Shown here: positions 44,494 to 50,923 of the stretch, one piece after another
How positions within the stretch are numbered: position 1 is the first letter of the stretch
How the letters are laid out: every line of letters begins with the position of its first letter
Assembly: GCA_011525945.1 (NCBI GenBank)
Contig: WYBJ01000158.1
Location: 1 to 51,283, forward strand
Source of the DNA: Burkholderiaceae bacterium
Lineage (GTDB): Bacteria > Pseudomonadota > Gammaproteobacteria > Burkholderiales > WYBJ01
Direction: 5' to 3'
Length of the DNA stretch: 51,283 nt
Notes under the pieces: model-generated
Seen by the model: the letters and a program-made list of their open reading frames with translations, nothing else
What the model was told of the DNA's origin: nothing
The model's database searches: none
Made by a program: the position numbers and the translations under genes

Positions 44494-45582
44494 CTAGCAA
44501 TAGCGGCGCAACACGTCGCGGTCGATCTCGATACCCAGACCGGGAGCTTGCGGAACGGTAACGATGCCGTCGTGGTGGCGGATGGGCTCGCGGGCGAGCT
44601 CGGTGCGCAGCGCATTCTCGCTCATGTCGTACTCGAGCAGTGTCGGAAACGGCTCCAGCGCGCGCGGCGAGTCGGGCAGCGCCGCGAGCACATGCAGCGT
44701 GGCGGCGAGCCGGATGGAGGTGCCGAACATGTGCGGAATGACGCGGACATGATTGGCGCTCGCCATGGCGGCGATCTTGCGAAACTCGGTGAAGCCGCCG
44801 CAAACGCACACGTCGGGCTGGATAATGTCGAGCGCGCGCTCCTGGATCATGCGGCGGAATGCCCAGCGCCCGCGCTGCTGCTCCGCGCCCGCAATGCGCA
44901 TGTTGAGCGCGCGGCGGATCTCGATGTAGCCCTCGACATCGTCGGCGCTGATCGGCTCTTCGAACCACAATAGCTTCTGCTTGCCGATCTCCTGGCCCAC
45001 CGCGATGGCGCTGCCTCGGTCATAGCCGCAATTCGCATCGACCGCGAGCAGGATGTCGTCGCCGATCGCGCGCCGCACCGCTGCTACGTTGGTGATGTCG
45101 TAAGCGGGACCGAACCCGACTTTCATCTTCATCACTTTGAAGCCCGCGTCGACGTAGCCACGAGCTTCTTCCACCAGGGCGGCGGTCCGGTCGGCGCGCT
45201 CGCGCCGAAACAGCCCCGTGGCGTAGGCCTGCACACGGGTGCGGAAGGCGCCACCCAGAAGCTGGTGGATCGGCTGCTTCAGCGCCTTGCCCATGATGTC
45301 CCACAGTGCGATGTCGACGGCGCTGATCGCCGCGGGATCGGTGCCTTGTCGGTGCAGCCCTTCCCAGATGAGCTCGCAGTCGAAGGGGTTGCGGCCGATC
45401 ACCTGGGATTCGAGCGCGCGCCGCGCCGGCACGATCGCACCTTCGCCCCAGCCGGTGATGCCGGCATCGGTGACGACCTCGACGATGCCGAATGCGCGCT
45501 CAGGGGTCGTGCGCATGGCGTTGGCGAAGGGATCCTCGACCGGGTAAACCGCGGTGTAGGTCTTGACGTCGATGATTTTCAT
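44494..45582 (-). CDS. Mandelate racemase/muconate lactonizing enzyme-family (enolase superfamily) protein
   Basis: A 362-residue TIM-barrel enzyme. The N-terminal capping domain begins MKIIDVKTYTAVYP. In the barrel are KVMKMKVGFG (KxK general base), metal ligands Asp in AVDANCGYD, Glu in LWFEEPI and Glu in IAGAEQQ, and His in RVIPHMFGTS. This Lys plus His arrangement fits acid-sugar dehydratases or mandelate-racemase types, which abstract the alpha proton of a carboxylate. The substrate cannot be fixed. It is near the LysR regulator but separated by a small gene on the other strand. Confidence 0.9.
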   Translation of the reverse strand: MKIIDVKTYTAVYPVEDPFANAMRTTPERAFGIVEVVTDAGITGWGEGAIVPARRALESQVIGRNPFDCELIWEGLHRQGTDPAAISAVDIALWDIMGKALKQPIHQLLGGAFRTRVQAYATGLFRRERADRTAALVEEARGYVDAGFKVMKMKVGFGPAYDITNVAAVRRAIGDDILLAVDANCGYDRGSAIAVGQEIGKQKLLWFEEPISADDVEGYIEIRRALNMRIAGAEQQRGRWAFRRMIQERALDIIQPDVCVCGGFTEFRKIAAMASANHVRVIPHMFGTSIRLAATLHVLAALPDSPRALEPFPTLLEYDMSENALRTELAREPIRHHDGIVTVPQAPGLGIEIDRDVLRRYC

Positions 45583-46233: not shown

Positions 46234-47199
46234 ATGTTGCTGCGCATACTCGGGTTGGCTGCACTCGCGCTTGCTGCGCTCGGAGCACGCGCCGGGGAAA
46301 GCTATCCCAGGAAGCCGCTACGCTGGATCATTCCCTACGCAGCCGGCGGTGGCACCGACGCCATCGTGCGGCCGATCGCGGTCAAGGCGGCCGAGGTGCT
46401 GGGGCAATCGGTCATCTACGAGAATCGAGGCGGGGCGGGCGGTCTGATCGCTGCGGAAATCGTGGCGCACGCCGAGCCCGACGGCTATACCTTTCTGGTG
46501 GCGGCGCCCAACACGCACATTTTCGCGACGCTGCTGCACAAGAAGATTCCTTACGATCCGGTCAAGGACTTCGCCCCGATCACCAAGTTCGACCTCACGC
46601 CGAACGTGCTGATCGCGCACCCCGGCTTCCCGCCCAACAGTGCCCGGGAAATGATCGCCTACGCCAAGGCCCACCCGGGCAAGGTCAATTTCGCTTCCTC
46701 CGGCGCCGGTTCCGGCGGCCATTTGTCGGTCCTCCTATTGATGGACACGATGAAGATCGACGTGCTGCACATCCCGTACAAAGGCGCCGGCCCGGCGGTA
46801 CTCGAGGTGCTCGCGGGCAGGAACGACCTGATGTTCATCAATCCGGCCGTCGCCATGGGGCATTACAAGGCGGGCAGACTGAAGGTGCTGGGCTTTGCCG
46901 GGCCCAAGCGCCTCGCCACCATGCCGGACGTGCCCACATTCGAGGAGCAGGGCTTCGTCGATTTCGAGTCGAGCAACTTCAAGGGACTGGTCGCGCCCGC
47001 GGGAACGCCGCGTGCAGTTATCGACAAGATGCACGACGTACTGGTGAAGATCGTCAACATGCCCGACATCCATGCGCGCCTGATCGCAGGCGGCTCGATT
47101 CCGCGCACGACTACGCCAGAGCAATTCGCCGACGAAAATCGCAAGGAAGTCGAACGCTGGGGTAAGCTCATGCGCAAGCACGGCATCCTGCCGCAATAG
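46234..47199 (+). CDS. Bug-family tripartite tricarboxylate transporter receptor
   Basis: A 321-residue receptor with a short signal peptide (MLLRILGLAALALAALGARA, cleavage before GESYP). Motifs: YPRKPLRWIIPYAAGGGTDA, VIYENRGGAGGLIAAEIVA, EPDGYTFLVAAPN, YDPVKDFAPITKF, HIPYKGAGPAVLEVLAG, MPDVPTFEEQG and C-terminal VERWGKLMRKHGI. No strong ribosome site precedes ATG 46234, so translation may depend on the truncated Bug frame ending nine bases upstream. The ligand is unknown. Confidence 0.9.
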   Translation: MLLRILGLAALALAALGARAGESYPRKPLRWIIPYAAGGGTDAIVRPIAVKAAEVLGQSVIYENRGGAGGLIAAEIVAHAEPDGYTFLVAAPNTHIFATLLHKKIPYDPVKDFAPITKFDLTPNVLIAHPGFPPNSAREMIAYAKAHPGKVNFASSGAGSGGHLSVLLLMDTMKIDVLHIPYKGAGPAVLEVLAGRNDLMFINPAVAMGHYKAGRLKVLGFAGPKRLATMPDVPTFEEQGFVDFESSNFKGLVAPAGTPRAVIDKMHDVLVKIVNMPDIHARLIAGGSIPRTTTPEQFADENRKEVERWGKLMRKHGILPQ

Positions 47200-47465: not shown

Positions 47466-47921
47466 ATGAGCCGAGAAATTCGTCCTGACGAGCACAACAC
47501 CCACCACATTGATTCGAGCGAAGCGGCGTCGAGCGATTCGATCGCATACCTGGTTGGTCAAGTGTACGAGGTTGCGCCCGCGCCGGCGCGGCGGCGCCTG
47601 ATCGAACATCTTCTGCGGCCGCTGAGCCTGCTGGCGCTACTGGCGGTAGCGAACGGCGTGTTCGCGAAACTCTGGTTTCGGCGAGGATGGCAGGACCTTG
47701 AGATCCGTATCGAGGATACGCATCTCATCACGAACAGCGATATAACGGCACTGGTCGATTTCGTACAGCAGGCCAGTGCCGACACCGTGTATGGAATCGG
47801 GCAAGTGGTGGCGTCGTGTCCCGAATTGCTCACCTCGGCGGCAGCCGGCGTGCTGATCGCCGCGCTCGGGCGATTGGCGGTGTCGCGTTTCGGCTCGAAT
47901 CCTCCGCTGAGTCAAGCCTGA
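47466..47921 (+). CDS. Small membrane protein of unknown function
   Basis: A 151-residue protein with CGGAGGTAAT immediately upstream of its ATG. The first 45 residues are polar (MSREIRPDEHNTHHIDSSEA). Two hydrophobic segments follow, at about 51-68 (PLSLLALLAVANGVFAKLWF) and about 122-141 (LTSAAAGVLIAALGRLAV). I do not recognise a family. It lies between the Bug receptor and the selenoprotein gene, with 164 bases to the latter, so co-transcription is possible but not shown. Confidence 0.65.
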   Translation: MSREIRPDEHNTHHIDSSEAASSDSIAYLVGQVYEVAPAPARRRLIEHLLRPLSLLALLAVANGVFAKLWFRRGWQDLEIRIEDTHLITNSDITALVDFVQQASADTVYGIGQVVASCPELLTSAAAGVLIAALGRLAVSRFGSNPPLSQA

Positions 47922-48085
47922 CGCACGAACCGCGAAGTTCGCGCGCGAGGACGATGCAAGCGTGCCGTGTACCGATCGACCGATGGCGAGCACCCGAGGG
48001 CGCCGGCGAAGGCGCTCATGCGCATCGCACCGTCGGGCACATCCGCAAGATCCGCCGGCGCGATTGACGATCAGGAGAATTGTCG

Positions 48086-49831
48086 ATGTCTATGCAGCAC
48101 GACGACGGATACTACGAATGCCACTGGCCGCGCGGCCAATTGCAGCAGCGCAGCCGCGCGCTCGCGCCGCGGCTGGAATCGCTCGCCGGCAAGAAGGTCG
48201 CGCAGCTCTGGGACGAGCTGTTCAAAGGCGATGTGGTGTTCGAACTGCTCGAAGAAGGACTGAAGCAGCGCTTTCCCGGCATCCAGTTCGTCAACTGGCG
48301 TCAATTCGGCAGCACGCACGGCGCGATGGAGAAGGAAGCCCTCGCAGCGCTGCCGAACAAGCTTCGCGACATGGGCGTCGACGCGGTCATCTCCGGAATG
48401 GCGTGCTGAGGCAGCTGCACTCCCGCCGTGTTGCGGGCCAGCGCAGCATGTGAGATCGCGGGTTTTCCGACCACCTCGCTCACATGCGAGGGTTTCGTCA
48501 GGCAGGCGGCCGCCACATCGATCGGGCTCGGCCTGCGCAACATCCCGATCGCGCTGGTGCCGGGTCACGTCGGCACCAAGAGCGCCGAGGAACTGCGCCG
48601 AGACATCCTGGAGGTCACGCTGCCCGATGTCATCAGGACCCTGACGCACGCCGACGACAGTATCGATCAGCCGCTCGAAGTCGGCGAGCGCGAAATCGTC
48701 GTGCGCGGCAGCTTCACCGAGGTGAACCGGTACTTCTACCGGCACGGCTTCACCGACGGTCTTCCCATCGTGCCGCCGACGCGCGCGGCGCTCGAACGTT
48801 TCCTGCGCTGCACCGAGCGCGATGCATCGGAAGTGCTCGGAGTGATGCTGCCGGACAAACGCGCCGCGACCGTCTGGAACGTTGCCGTGAACGGCGTCAT
48901 GGCGGGGTGCCGGCCGGAGTACATGCCCGTTCTGATCGCGATCGTCGAGGCCATGGCGGATCCGCGCTACGGCGTCGAGCACAGCGGCAACACACCGGGC
49001 GCCGATACGCTGATCATCCTCAACGGGCCTATCGTCAAGCAGCTCGATTTCAACTACACGCAGGGCGCGTTGCGCGACGGCTTCATGCCGAACACCTCGA
49101 TCGGCCGCTTCTTCCGGCTATACCTGCGCAACGTCCCTGGATTTCATCTGCATCAGACCGACAAGGCGACGTTCGGCAACACGTGGCGTGTCGTGCTCGC
49201 GGAAAACGACGATGTCCTGGAGGAGATCGGCTGGCCGACGATCGGTGAGGAGATGGGTTTCGCGCGCGGCGACAACGTCGTCACGATATCGCGCTTCACC
49301 GGCGGCGGATCGCTCTCCTCGGTGACCGGGTCGACGCCGGAGCAGCTCCTGCCCTACCTCGCCGATTCGATCGAGCGCTTCAACAACTGGCAGATCACGT
49401 TCACCACCAGCCACGGCCGCGGCACGCTGCGACCGCTCGCCGTGATCACTCCGATCCTTGCACGCACACTCGCGAGAGCCGGCTGCAGCAAGCTCGACGT
49501 TCAGCGCTTCCTGTTCGAGCGTGTCCGCCGTCCGGCGTGGGACTTCGAGCGGCAGTTACGCGACTGGAATATACGCGGCAAATGGAATCTCGCGGAGGAC
49601 GTCGAAGCCGGTCTGATCCCGAAAGTCTTCCTCGGATCCGGAGATCCCGATCGCCTGGTGCCTATCGTCTGGAAGCCCGAAGATCTGATGATAGCCGTCG
49701 GCGGCGATCCGCTGCGCAACAACGCCTACGTGTTCGCGCACAACGGCTTTCTCGGCTTCCCGACCGGGAAGAAGATCAGCCTGCCGAAACGCTGGGACGA
49801 ACTTCTGGCCGAGGCGAAGAAGCATGCATGA
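48086..49831 (+). CDS. UGSC-family selenoprotein (in-frame TGA read as selenocysteine at 48407-48409)
   Basis: A protein of about 581 residues if the TGA at codon 108 is read as selenocysteine. The ATG at 48086 follows AGGAGAA (48073-48079). Before the TGA the protein contains SLAGKKVAQLWDELFKGDVV and LPNKLRDMGVDAVISGMAC. After it the same frame continues GSC TPAVLRASAACEIAGFPTTS, giving the motif C-U-G-S-C (107-111). This is the hallmark of the UGSC family as I recall it, where Cys replaces Sec in many members. A second domain from about residue 215 (RHGFTDGLPIVPPT, WNVAVNGVMAGCRPEYMPVL, NTPGADTLIILNGPI) extends to the end. The chemistry is presumably thiol/selenol redox; the substrate is unknown. 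Without Sec insertion the gene would give a useless 107-residue fragment. Confidence 0.87.
48414..48447 (+). promoter_or_regulatory. Putative bacterial SECIS element
   Basis: Starting 4 bases after the TGA, GCTGC (48414-48418) pairs with GCAGC (48443-48447), and CCCGC (48422-48426) pairs with GCGGG (48433-48437). The two stems are separated by an asymmetric internal loop, and the apical loop is CGTGTT, with a G at its second position and a GU step. The loop begins 17 bases after the UGA, inside the spacing known for bacterial SECIS hairpins. The element lies within the coding sequence, as expected for bacteria, and is predicted to recruit SelB. Confidence 0.72.
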
Positions 49832-49939: not shown

Positions 49940-50923
49940 TCAATTCAGCGTAACGCCCGCATCGTGCATGATCTTGCCCCAGCGGGCCACATCCTTCTTC
50001 AGGAACGCGGCGGACTCCTCGATCGTGGCTGGCGATGGCTCCACCCCCTGACGGATGAGCTGCGTGCGGACATCCTGGGTGTCGAGCACCTTCAGCACGA
50101 CCTCATTCAGGTGCTTCACGATCGCCATGGGCGTCGCAGCCGGCGCGATGAGCGCGAACCATGTACCGATATCGAGTTGCGGATAACCAGCCTCGGACAT
50201 CGTCGGTACGTCGGGCAGCAGCGGCGAGCGCTTCGCCCCCGACACACCCAACGCCCGCAAACGGCCCGCCTTCACATGCGGCGCCATCGACGACACGTTG
50301 GTAAAGAGCATGTGGACCTGACCCGCGATCAGTTCCTGCGCGGCCTGCGCGCTGCCCTTGTAAGGCACGTGCGTAAGCTCGATCCCGGTACTCGTGCGCA
50401 GAAGCTCGCCGAGCAGGTGCCCCGTGCCGCCCATCCCGGTCGAGGCAAAATTGAGCTCGCGCGGCCTGCGCTTGGCAAGAGCAACCAGTTCCTTGATCGA
50501 TCTGACCGGCATCGACGAGTGCACGACCAGCGTGAACGGCAGCGTGCCCACCAGCGAGATCGGAACGAAGTCCTTGACGAGATCGTAACGCGCACGCTTC
50601 GAGTGCATGTTGATCGACACGCTGGAGCTGGGCAGAAAGAGCGTGTGACCGTCCGGTGCGGCTTTCGACGCCAGCTCGGCCGCCACCACCCCGCCCGCTC
50701 CGGGCCGGTTGTCGATGACGACCATCTGGTGTAGCTCTTGCGTGAGCTTCGGCGCCAGAATACGCGCCACCGTATCGTTCCCGCTGCCTGGCGGAAACGG
50801 CAGGATGATGCTGATCGGCCTGGTCGGGTAAGACTGCGACCACGCGCTGCCGCCGGCGAGCACGAGCGCGGTCATCGCCAGCGCGAAACAACGCATCACC
50901 AGTAAGCTGCTTACCCTCACCAC
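49940..50923 (-). CDS. Bug-family tripartite tricarboxylate transporter receptor
   Basis: A 327-residue receptor. It starts with tandem GTG codons at 50923/50920 after GAGGAG; a third option is ATG 50896, which begins a compact signal peptide (MRCFALAMTALVLAGGSAW). Mature motifs: YPTRPISIILPFPPGSGNDT, VVIDNRPGAGGVVAAELASK, APDGHTLFLPSSSVSINMH, THVPYKGSAQAAQELIAG, LLPDVPTMSEAG and the tail ARWGKIMHDAGV. It converges with the selenoprotein gene (108 bases apart). Whether it feeds that enzyme is unknown. Confidence 0.92.
   Translation of the reverse strand: MVRVSSLLVMRCFALAMTALVLAGGSAWSQSYPTRPISIILPFPPGSGNDTVARILAPKLTQELHQMVVIDNRPGAGGVVAAELASKAAPDGHTLFLPSSSVSINMHSKRARYDLVKDFVPISLVGTLPFTLVVHSSMPVRSIKELVALAKRRPRELNFASTGMGGTGHLLGELLRTSTGIELTHVPYKGSAQAAQELIAGQVHMLFTNVSSMAPHVKAGRLRALGVSGAKRSPLLPDVPTMSEAGYPQLDIGTWFALIAPAATPMAIVKHLNEVVLKVLDTQDVRTQLIRQGVEPSPATIEESAAFLKKDVARWGKIMHDAGVTLN

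Follow-up and report, generated by a model that had tools for sequence, protein, structure and literature searches.

The window, which is the whole 51,283-nucleotide stretch of DNA analysed here, contains a long reading frame at positions 48086-49831 that is interrupted by one TGA. The question raised by this locus is whether that TGA ends a gene or is read as selenocysteine (Sec) inside one. Positions below are on the forward strand except where the reverse strand is indicated. In the sequence and its ORF translation, the TGA at 48407-48409 is the only one in frame, and the frame is open elsewhere. With this codon taken as Sec, the whole gene encodes 581 residues. A Shine-Dalgarno-like AGGAG (48073-48077) precedes the ATG at 48086 with an 8-nucleotide spacing. 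The codons flanking the TGA read Cys107-TGA-Gly-Ser-Cys111, which places the TGA (residue 108) at the U of the UGSC motif. Cys111 (48416-48418), the partner in this UxxC motif, is near-invariant among 70 homologues. Table 11 translation divides the frame into an upstream ORF of 107 residues from the ATG at 48086 (109 if from the TTG at 48080) and a downstream ORF of 467 residues from a GTG at 48428. No Shine-Dalgarno is visible 5' of this GTG on inspection of the sequence. An earlier sequence-only reading of this DNA had given the TGA position and the two ORF lengths correctly. It had also placed the TGA at the U of U-G-S-C behind another Cys and the downstream part without a ribosome site, as is found here.

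The UGSC domain model PF24696 matches the read-through protein across the TGA (residues 13-187, positions 48122-48646) with 102.6 bits and an E-value of 3.5e-29; the curated Pfam cut-off is 25 bits. The two halves of the protein, searched separately, also match, each to the corresponding part of the model (1.1e-8 and 1.3e-11). The NF041046 UGSC equivalog model gives the window protein 44.5 bits, which is under its 125-bit cut-off. The genome to which the window belongs has 16 UGSC genes over the cut-off, and each contains exactly one in-frame TGA. In all 16 the TGA opens the motif U-G-[SGATC]-C. Homologous loci from other genomes carry a TGA at the motif column in 68 of 80 cases. These 80 loci come from a scan of named genomes and include both metagenome-assembled genomes (MAGs) and isolates, with records labelled as several phyla. 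In an alignment of these loci with six fused paralogues and the window gene (87 sequences), the motif column contains 75 Sec, 10 Cys, and 1 Gly, and 1 sequence is not alignable. The nearest named homologues are mostly betaproteobacterial MAGs, and the bacterium that carries the window appears to be betaproteobacterial itself. Six UGSC-bearing records (L070, L077, L082, L091, L113, and L142) have 'Bordetella parapertussis' MAG titles; these are probably environmental bins with wrong labels.

That Table 11 alone yields two ORFs would fit two separate genes, or a single gene disrupted by a nonsense mutation or a sequencing error. The chance of this is very slight. The TGA column is identical in all 16 paralogues and recurs in homologues labelled as several phyla, the domain spans the TGA, and dN/dS is approximately 0.1-0.35, well below 1, both upstream and downstream of it, which indicates purifying selection on either side. 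The nonsense-mutation and two-gene readings were rejected on these grounds. A genome in which TGA is read as sense throughout, as Trp for instance, would fit one in-frame TGA taken alone, and the probability of such a code is close to nil. The paralogues contain one TGA each, at the motif column only, and 10 of the 16 terminate on TGA. Homologues replace the TGA by Cys and never by Trp, and the genome has the Sec machinery described below. Genome-wide recoding was rejected for these reasons. The TGA at 48407-48409 is thus almost certainly a Sec codon in one 581-residue selenoprotein of the UGSC family, as predicted in silico.

A SECIS-like hairpin is predicted right after the UGA (48421-48438) from folding energy and from covariation at the level of the family. 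In the window it is composed of a 5-base-pair stem, CCCGC (48422-48426) with GCGGG (48433-48437), and a CGUGUU loop. The family hairpin begins approximately 12 nucleotides past the UGA and has the typical form GCCCGC(CGUGUU)GCGGGC. Its mean energy is -12.3 kcal/mol in the 75 Sec genes; the 10 Cys homologues, which lack the hairpin, average -2.9 kcal/mol (p = 1.8e-7). At other offsets the Sec genes give -2.4 to -6.1 kcal/mol, against -12.3 kcal/mol at the SECIS position. Synonymous-codon shuffles, a control in which the relatedness of the sequences stays in, give a mean z of -2.2 for Sec genes and +0.3 for Cys genes. For the window hairpin alone the shuffle z is -0.8, which is not unusual, and the signal is one of the family. 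Pairing is found in 95% of the stem cells, and a compensatory G-C to A-U double change is present in five distinct sequences (sequences being counted here, not events). Most stand-alone paralogues have an analogous hairpin, for example GUCGUGGAGUGUCCACGAC. An Rfam scan of the gene region gave 0 matches. The UGSC Sec genes appear to carry what is expected of a bacterial SECIS, a hairpin shortly 3' of the UGA; for the window copy by itself this prediction is weak.

The genome (G000) contains selA (2e-156), selB, selD, and tRNA-Sec. The sequence-only reading had suggested a search for this machinery and an alignment of homologues, and had held that the family has Sec or Cys at this site; both are borne out, the aligned column being occupied by one or the other in all but two of the 87 sequences. 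Its preference for recoding over a nonsense mutation or two genes is likewise upheld by the conserved domain, the paralogue TGA column, the SECIS-like hairpin, and purifying selection. Two sets of tRNA-Sec, selB, and a thioredoxin-reductase-like gene are present, on contigs C103 (L043) and C331 (L044). Each of three congeners has one tRNA-Sec of the same strength as the C103 copy, and the C331 set may therefore represent a stray contig in the MAG, for which contamination is estimated at 1.5%, or else a duplicate. The SelD gene (L049, G000 contig C193) has an in-frame TGA in the context GGG-U-GCK and is itself a predicted selenoprotein. A PrdB-like gene on G000 contig C157 (L183:1252-1959, reverse strand) has an in-frame TGA in the context SPV-U-PNC with a hairpin directly downstream. 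This too is a predicted selenoprotein, and gene callers would cut it short.

At least 18 selenoproteins are predicted in this genome (16 UGSC proteins, SelD, and the PrdB-like protein). The congeners G001, G002, and G003 have at least 24, 19, and 24 UGSC matches over the cut-off, of which at least 23, 19, and 24 contain a TGA; the candidates were scored in part, and all of these counts are lower bounds. One strong UGSC match in G001 (C44:7810-8313) has no TGA and is a possible Sec-to-Cys conversion inside the expanded set. UGSC genes are present in six of 369 genomes in the class sample, this genome among them. In 2016, 33 UGSC proteins from 26 organisms were listed in a survey that covered more than 5,200 genomes (PMC5029168). 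The number of UGSC copies per genome is far above published values, and this, together with the score below the NF041046 cut-off, is where the window protein differs from known UGSC proteins. Most bacteria described as rich in selenoproteins are anaerobes, and the highest number on record is 39 genes, all families counted (PMC9312934, PMC5029168). In contrast to that pattern, this genome combines 16 genes of one selenoprotein family with five strong matches to COX1, a heme-copper oxidase. The five matches indicate that the genome is equipped for aerobic respiration.

Most of the window protein is a separate C-terminal domain (approximate boundary 48686-49828) containing a near-invariant Cys275 (48908-48910) in the homologue alignment. 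No Pfam model matches it. Zhang and Gladyshev described a fusion of UGSC to a conserved domain named 'Unknown_1' in 2008 (PMC2398784, Fig. S1A), and the C-terminal domain is probably this Unknown_1. The window protein shares with that fusion, and with PF24696 and NF041046, the Sec in U-G-S-C, the same domain, and the fusion to one further conserved domain as far as it is described there. The window gene adds one member to a family and a fusion known since 2008. Seven of the paralogues, the window gene included, are fused to the C-terminal domain of approximately 380 residues and nine are stand-alone. For all 16 UGSC genes the domain is either fused or encoded on the same strand no more than approximately 250 bp away, in either gene order; for the second UGSC copy on contig C126 it is seen as a fragment only. 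UGSC thus occurs paired with Unknown_1, fused or adjacent. Two Unknown_1 copies without a detectable UGSC partner are located on G000 contigs C327 (7143-8192) and C237 (2071-2319). A motif scan near these two genes found no UGSC-like partner with a TGA. The domain, its pairing with UGSC, and the at least 15 paralogues go beyond the sequence-only reading, as does the kinship with PrdB and GrdB described next.

The PrdB model matches 43 of 70 UGSC homologues, the best with an E-value of 3.3e-5; the models of GrdF, GrdB, and GrdH match others. The similarity is remote and lies far under the cut-offs of these models; the window protein scores 18.7 bits against PrdB, for which the cut-off is 300. 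Alignment of UGSC with the C157 PrdB-like selenoprotein by hhalign puts Sec on Sec and Cys on Cys (E = 1.1e-5, 45 columns, probability 82%). In the alignment of the window protein with PrdB, Sec108 falls by offset near PrdB position 150, and the Sec of Clostridium sticklandii PrdB is Sec152. These matches point to the UGSC domain as a remote homologue of PrdB and GrdB, which are the Sec-bearing subunits of D-proline reductase and glycine reductase. In those subunits the selenolate takes part in cleavage of the alpha C-N bond (PMC10298544). UGSC proteins resemble PrdB and GrdB/GrdF/GrdH in the remote homology near Sec, the UxxC motif (PrdB), a two-part layout that includes a partner protein, and what looks like a tie to a thioredoxin-reductase-like electron supply. 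They differ in that the partner is Unknown_1, which looks unrelated, in scores far below the family cut-offs, and in a host that is aerobically equipped and not a Stickland fermenter. The pyruvoyl proprotein GrdE/PrdA (PF09338) was found in 0 of 398 genomes of the phylum, this genome included; the controls gave no signal either. FarB, a GrdB-like selenoprotein with a proposed role in reducing fluoroacetate (PMC10838667), is a parallel in that a Grd-type Sec subunit may be reused for a new small substrate and its paralogues expanded in number. Unlike UGSC, FarB belongs with true GrdB/GrdE homologues in anaerobic Synergistota.

A divergent thioredoxin-reductase-like flavoprotein with CxxC adjoins or is near UGSC genes at 12 loci, including the paralogue on C175, and this genome has a gene of this type adjoining selB and tRNA-Sec. 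Those examined score under the TrxR equivalog cut-off. The window copy has no adjacent reductase gene. UGSC genes have selA nearby at six loci and selB at four. TctC/Bug periplasmic receptors (PF03401) flank the window gene upstream (46234-47199) and downstream (49940-50923, reverse strand), and receptors of this kind are present within 2.5 kb of UGSC/Unknown_1 genes at 26 further loci. The TctC neighbours are weak evidence, since these bacteria have very many receptors of this kind. A member of the mandelate racemase/muconate-lactonizing enzyme superfamily (PF13378 and PF02746) is encoded at 44494-45582 on the reverse strand. Judged by sequence without Pfam, further neighbours that recur at these loci resemble CoA transferases, MmgE/PrpD, TPP enzymes, and dehydrogenases. 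Between the upstream TctC gene and the selenoprotein gene is a 151-residue ORF (47466-47921) with no match in Pfam.

A reductase mechanism is suggested by the PrdB/GrdB homology, the Unknown_1 pairing, and the neighbours, and it has somewhat less than an even chance of being correct. Recoding itself is strongly supported in silico: the UGA at 48407-48409 is predicted to be translated as Sec, directed by the downstream hairpin and by the genome's own SelA, SelB, SelD, and tRNA-Sec. In the proposed mechanism, Unknown_1 would bind a small carboxylate-type substrate, and the selenolate of UGSC Sec108 would attack the activated carbon of the bound substrate, with reductive cleavage of a C-N, C-O, or C-halogen bond. 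Cys111 would then resolve the adduct as a selenenyl sulfide, which would be re-reduced by the thioredoxin-reductase-like flavoprotein. The substrate would differ among paralogues.

An alternative is that the UGSC selenoprotein adopts a thioredoxin-like fold and serves as an antioxidant of the thiol-redox or peroxide type, with Unknown_1 as an accessory redox domain. The UxxC motif and the thioredoxin-reductase-like neighbours fit this, and a Trx-like fold was proposed by Zhang and Gladyshev, as given in PMC2398784. The alternative is rather unlikely. The sequence profiles match PrdB/GrdB and neither Trx nor Prx, and catabolic genes and solute receptors accompany the paralogues. Strands and helices alternate in the predicted structure of the UGSC domain (pLDDT 92.4), whose matches among solved structures are flavodoxin/Rossmann-like, with no thioredoxin in the top 50 and TM-scores of only approximately 0.2-0.5. 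Against the 2008 suggestion, the fold would be flavodoxin/Rossmann-like rather than thioredoxin; this class is tentative because the TM-scores are low. A search with the whole protein gave no credible fold match; fumarase was discarded as spurious (TM-score 0.17, rmsd near 19).

The Sec could also be a nucleophile in a non-reductive reaction by which a small acid is racemised, isomerised, or hydrolysed. LD-carboxypeptidase and isomerase structures are among the fold matches, and sequence searches against solved structures gave only a weak match, to a hydantoin racemase profile (E = 0.016). The PrdB/GrdB match is better, and the thioredoxin-reductase-like partner and the conserved UxxC pair indicate electron transfer, which makes the non-reductive reaction improbable.

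Beyond the reductase mechanism itself, UGSC with Unknown_1 is put forward tentatively, as a possibility that may well fail, as a distinct class of two-part selenium-dependent reductases akin to PrdB/GrdB, with a substrate-diversified set of at least 16 in an aerobic genus. If this is true, a selenium-based catabolic strategy would extend beyond anaerobic Stickland fermenters. The tie to PrdB/GrdB and the constant partner domain would give the UGSC family a testable chemistry. Standard gene callers would split the UGSC gene and each of its relatives in two and so conceal an unusually large set of selenoproteins of a single family.
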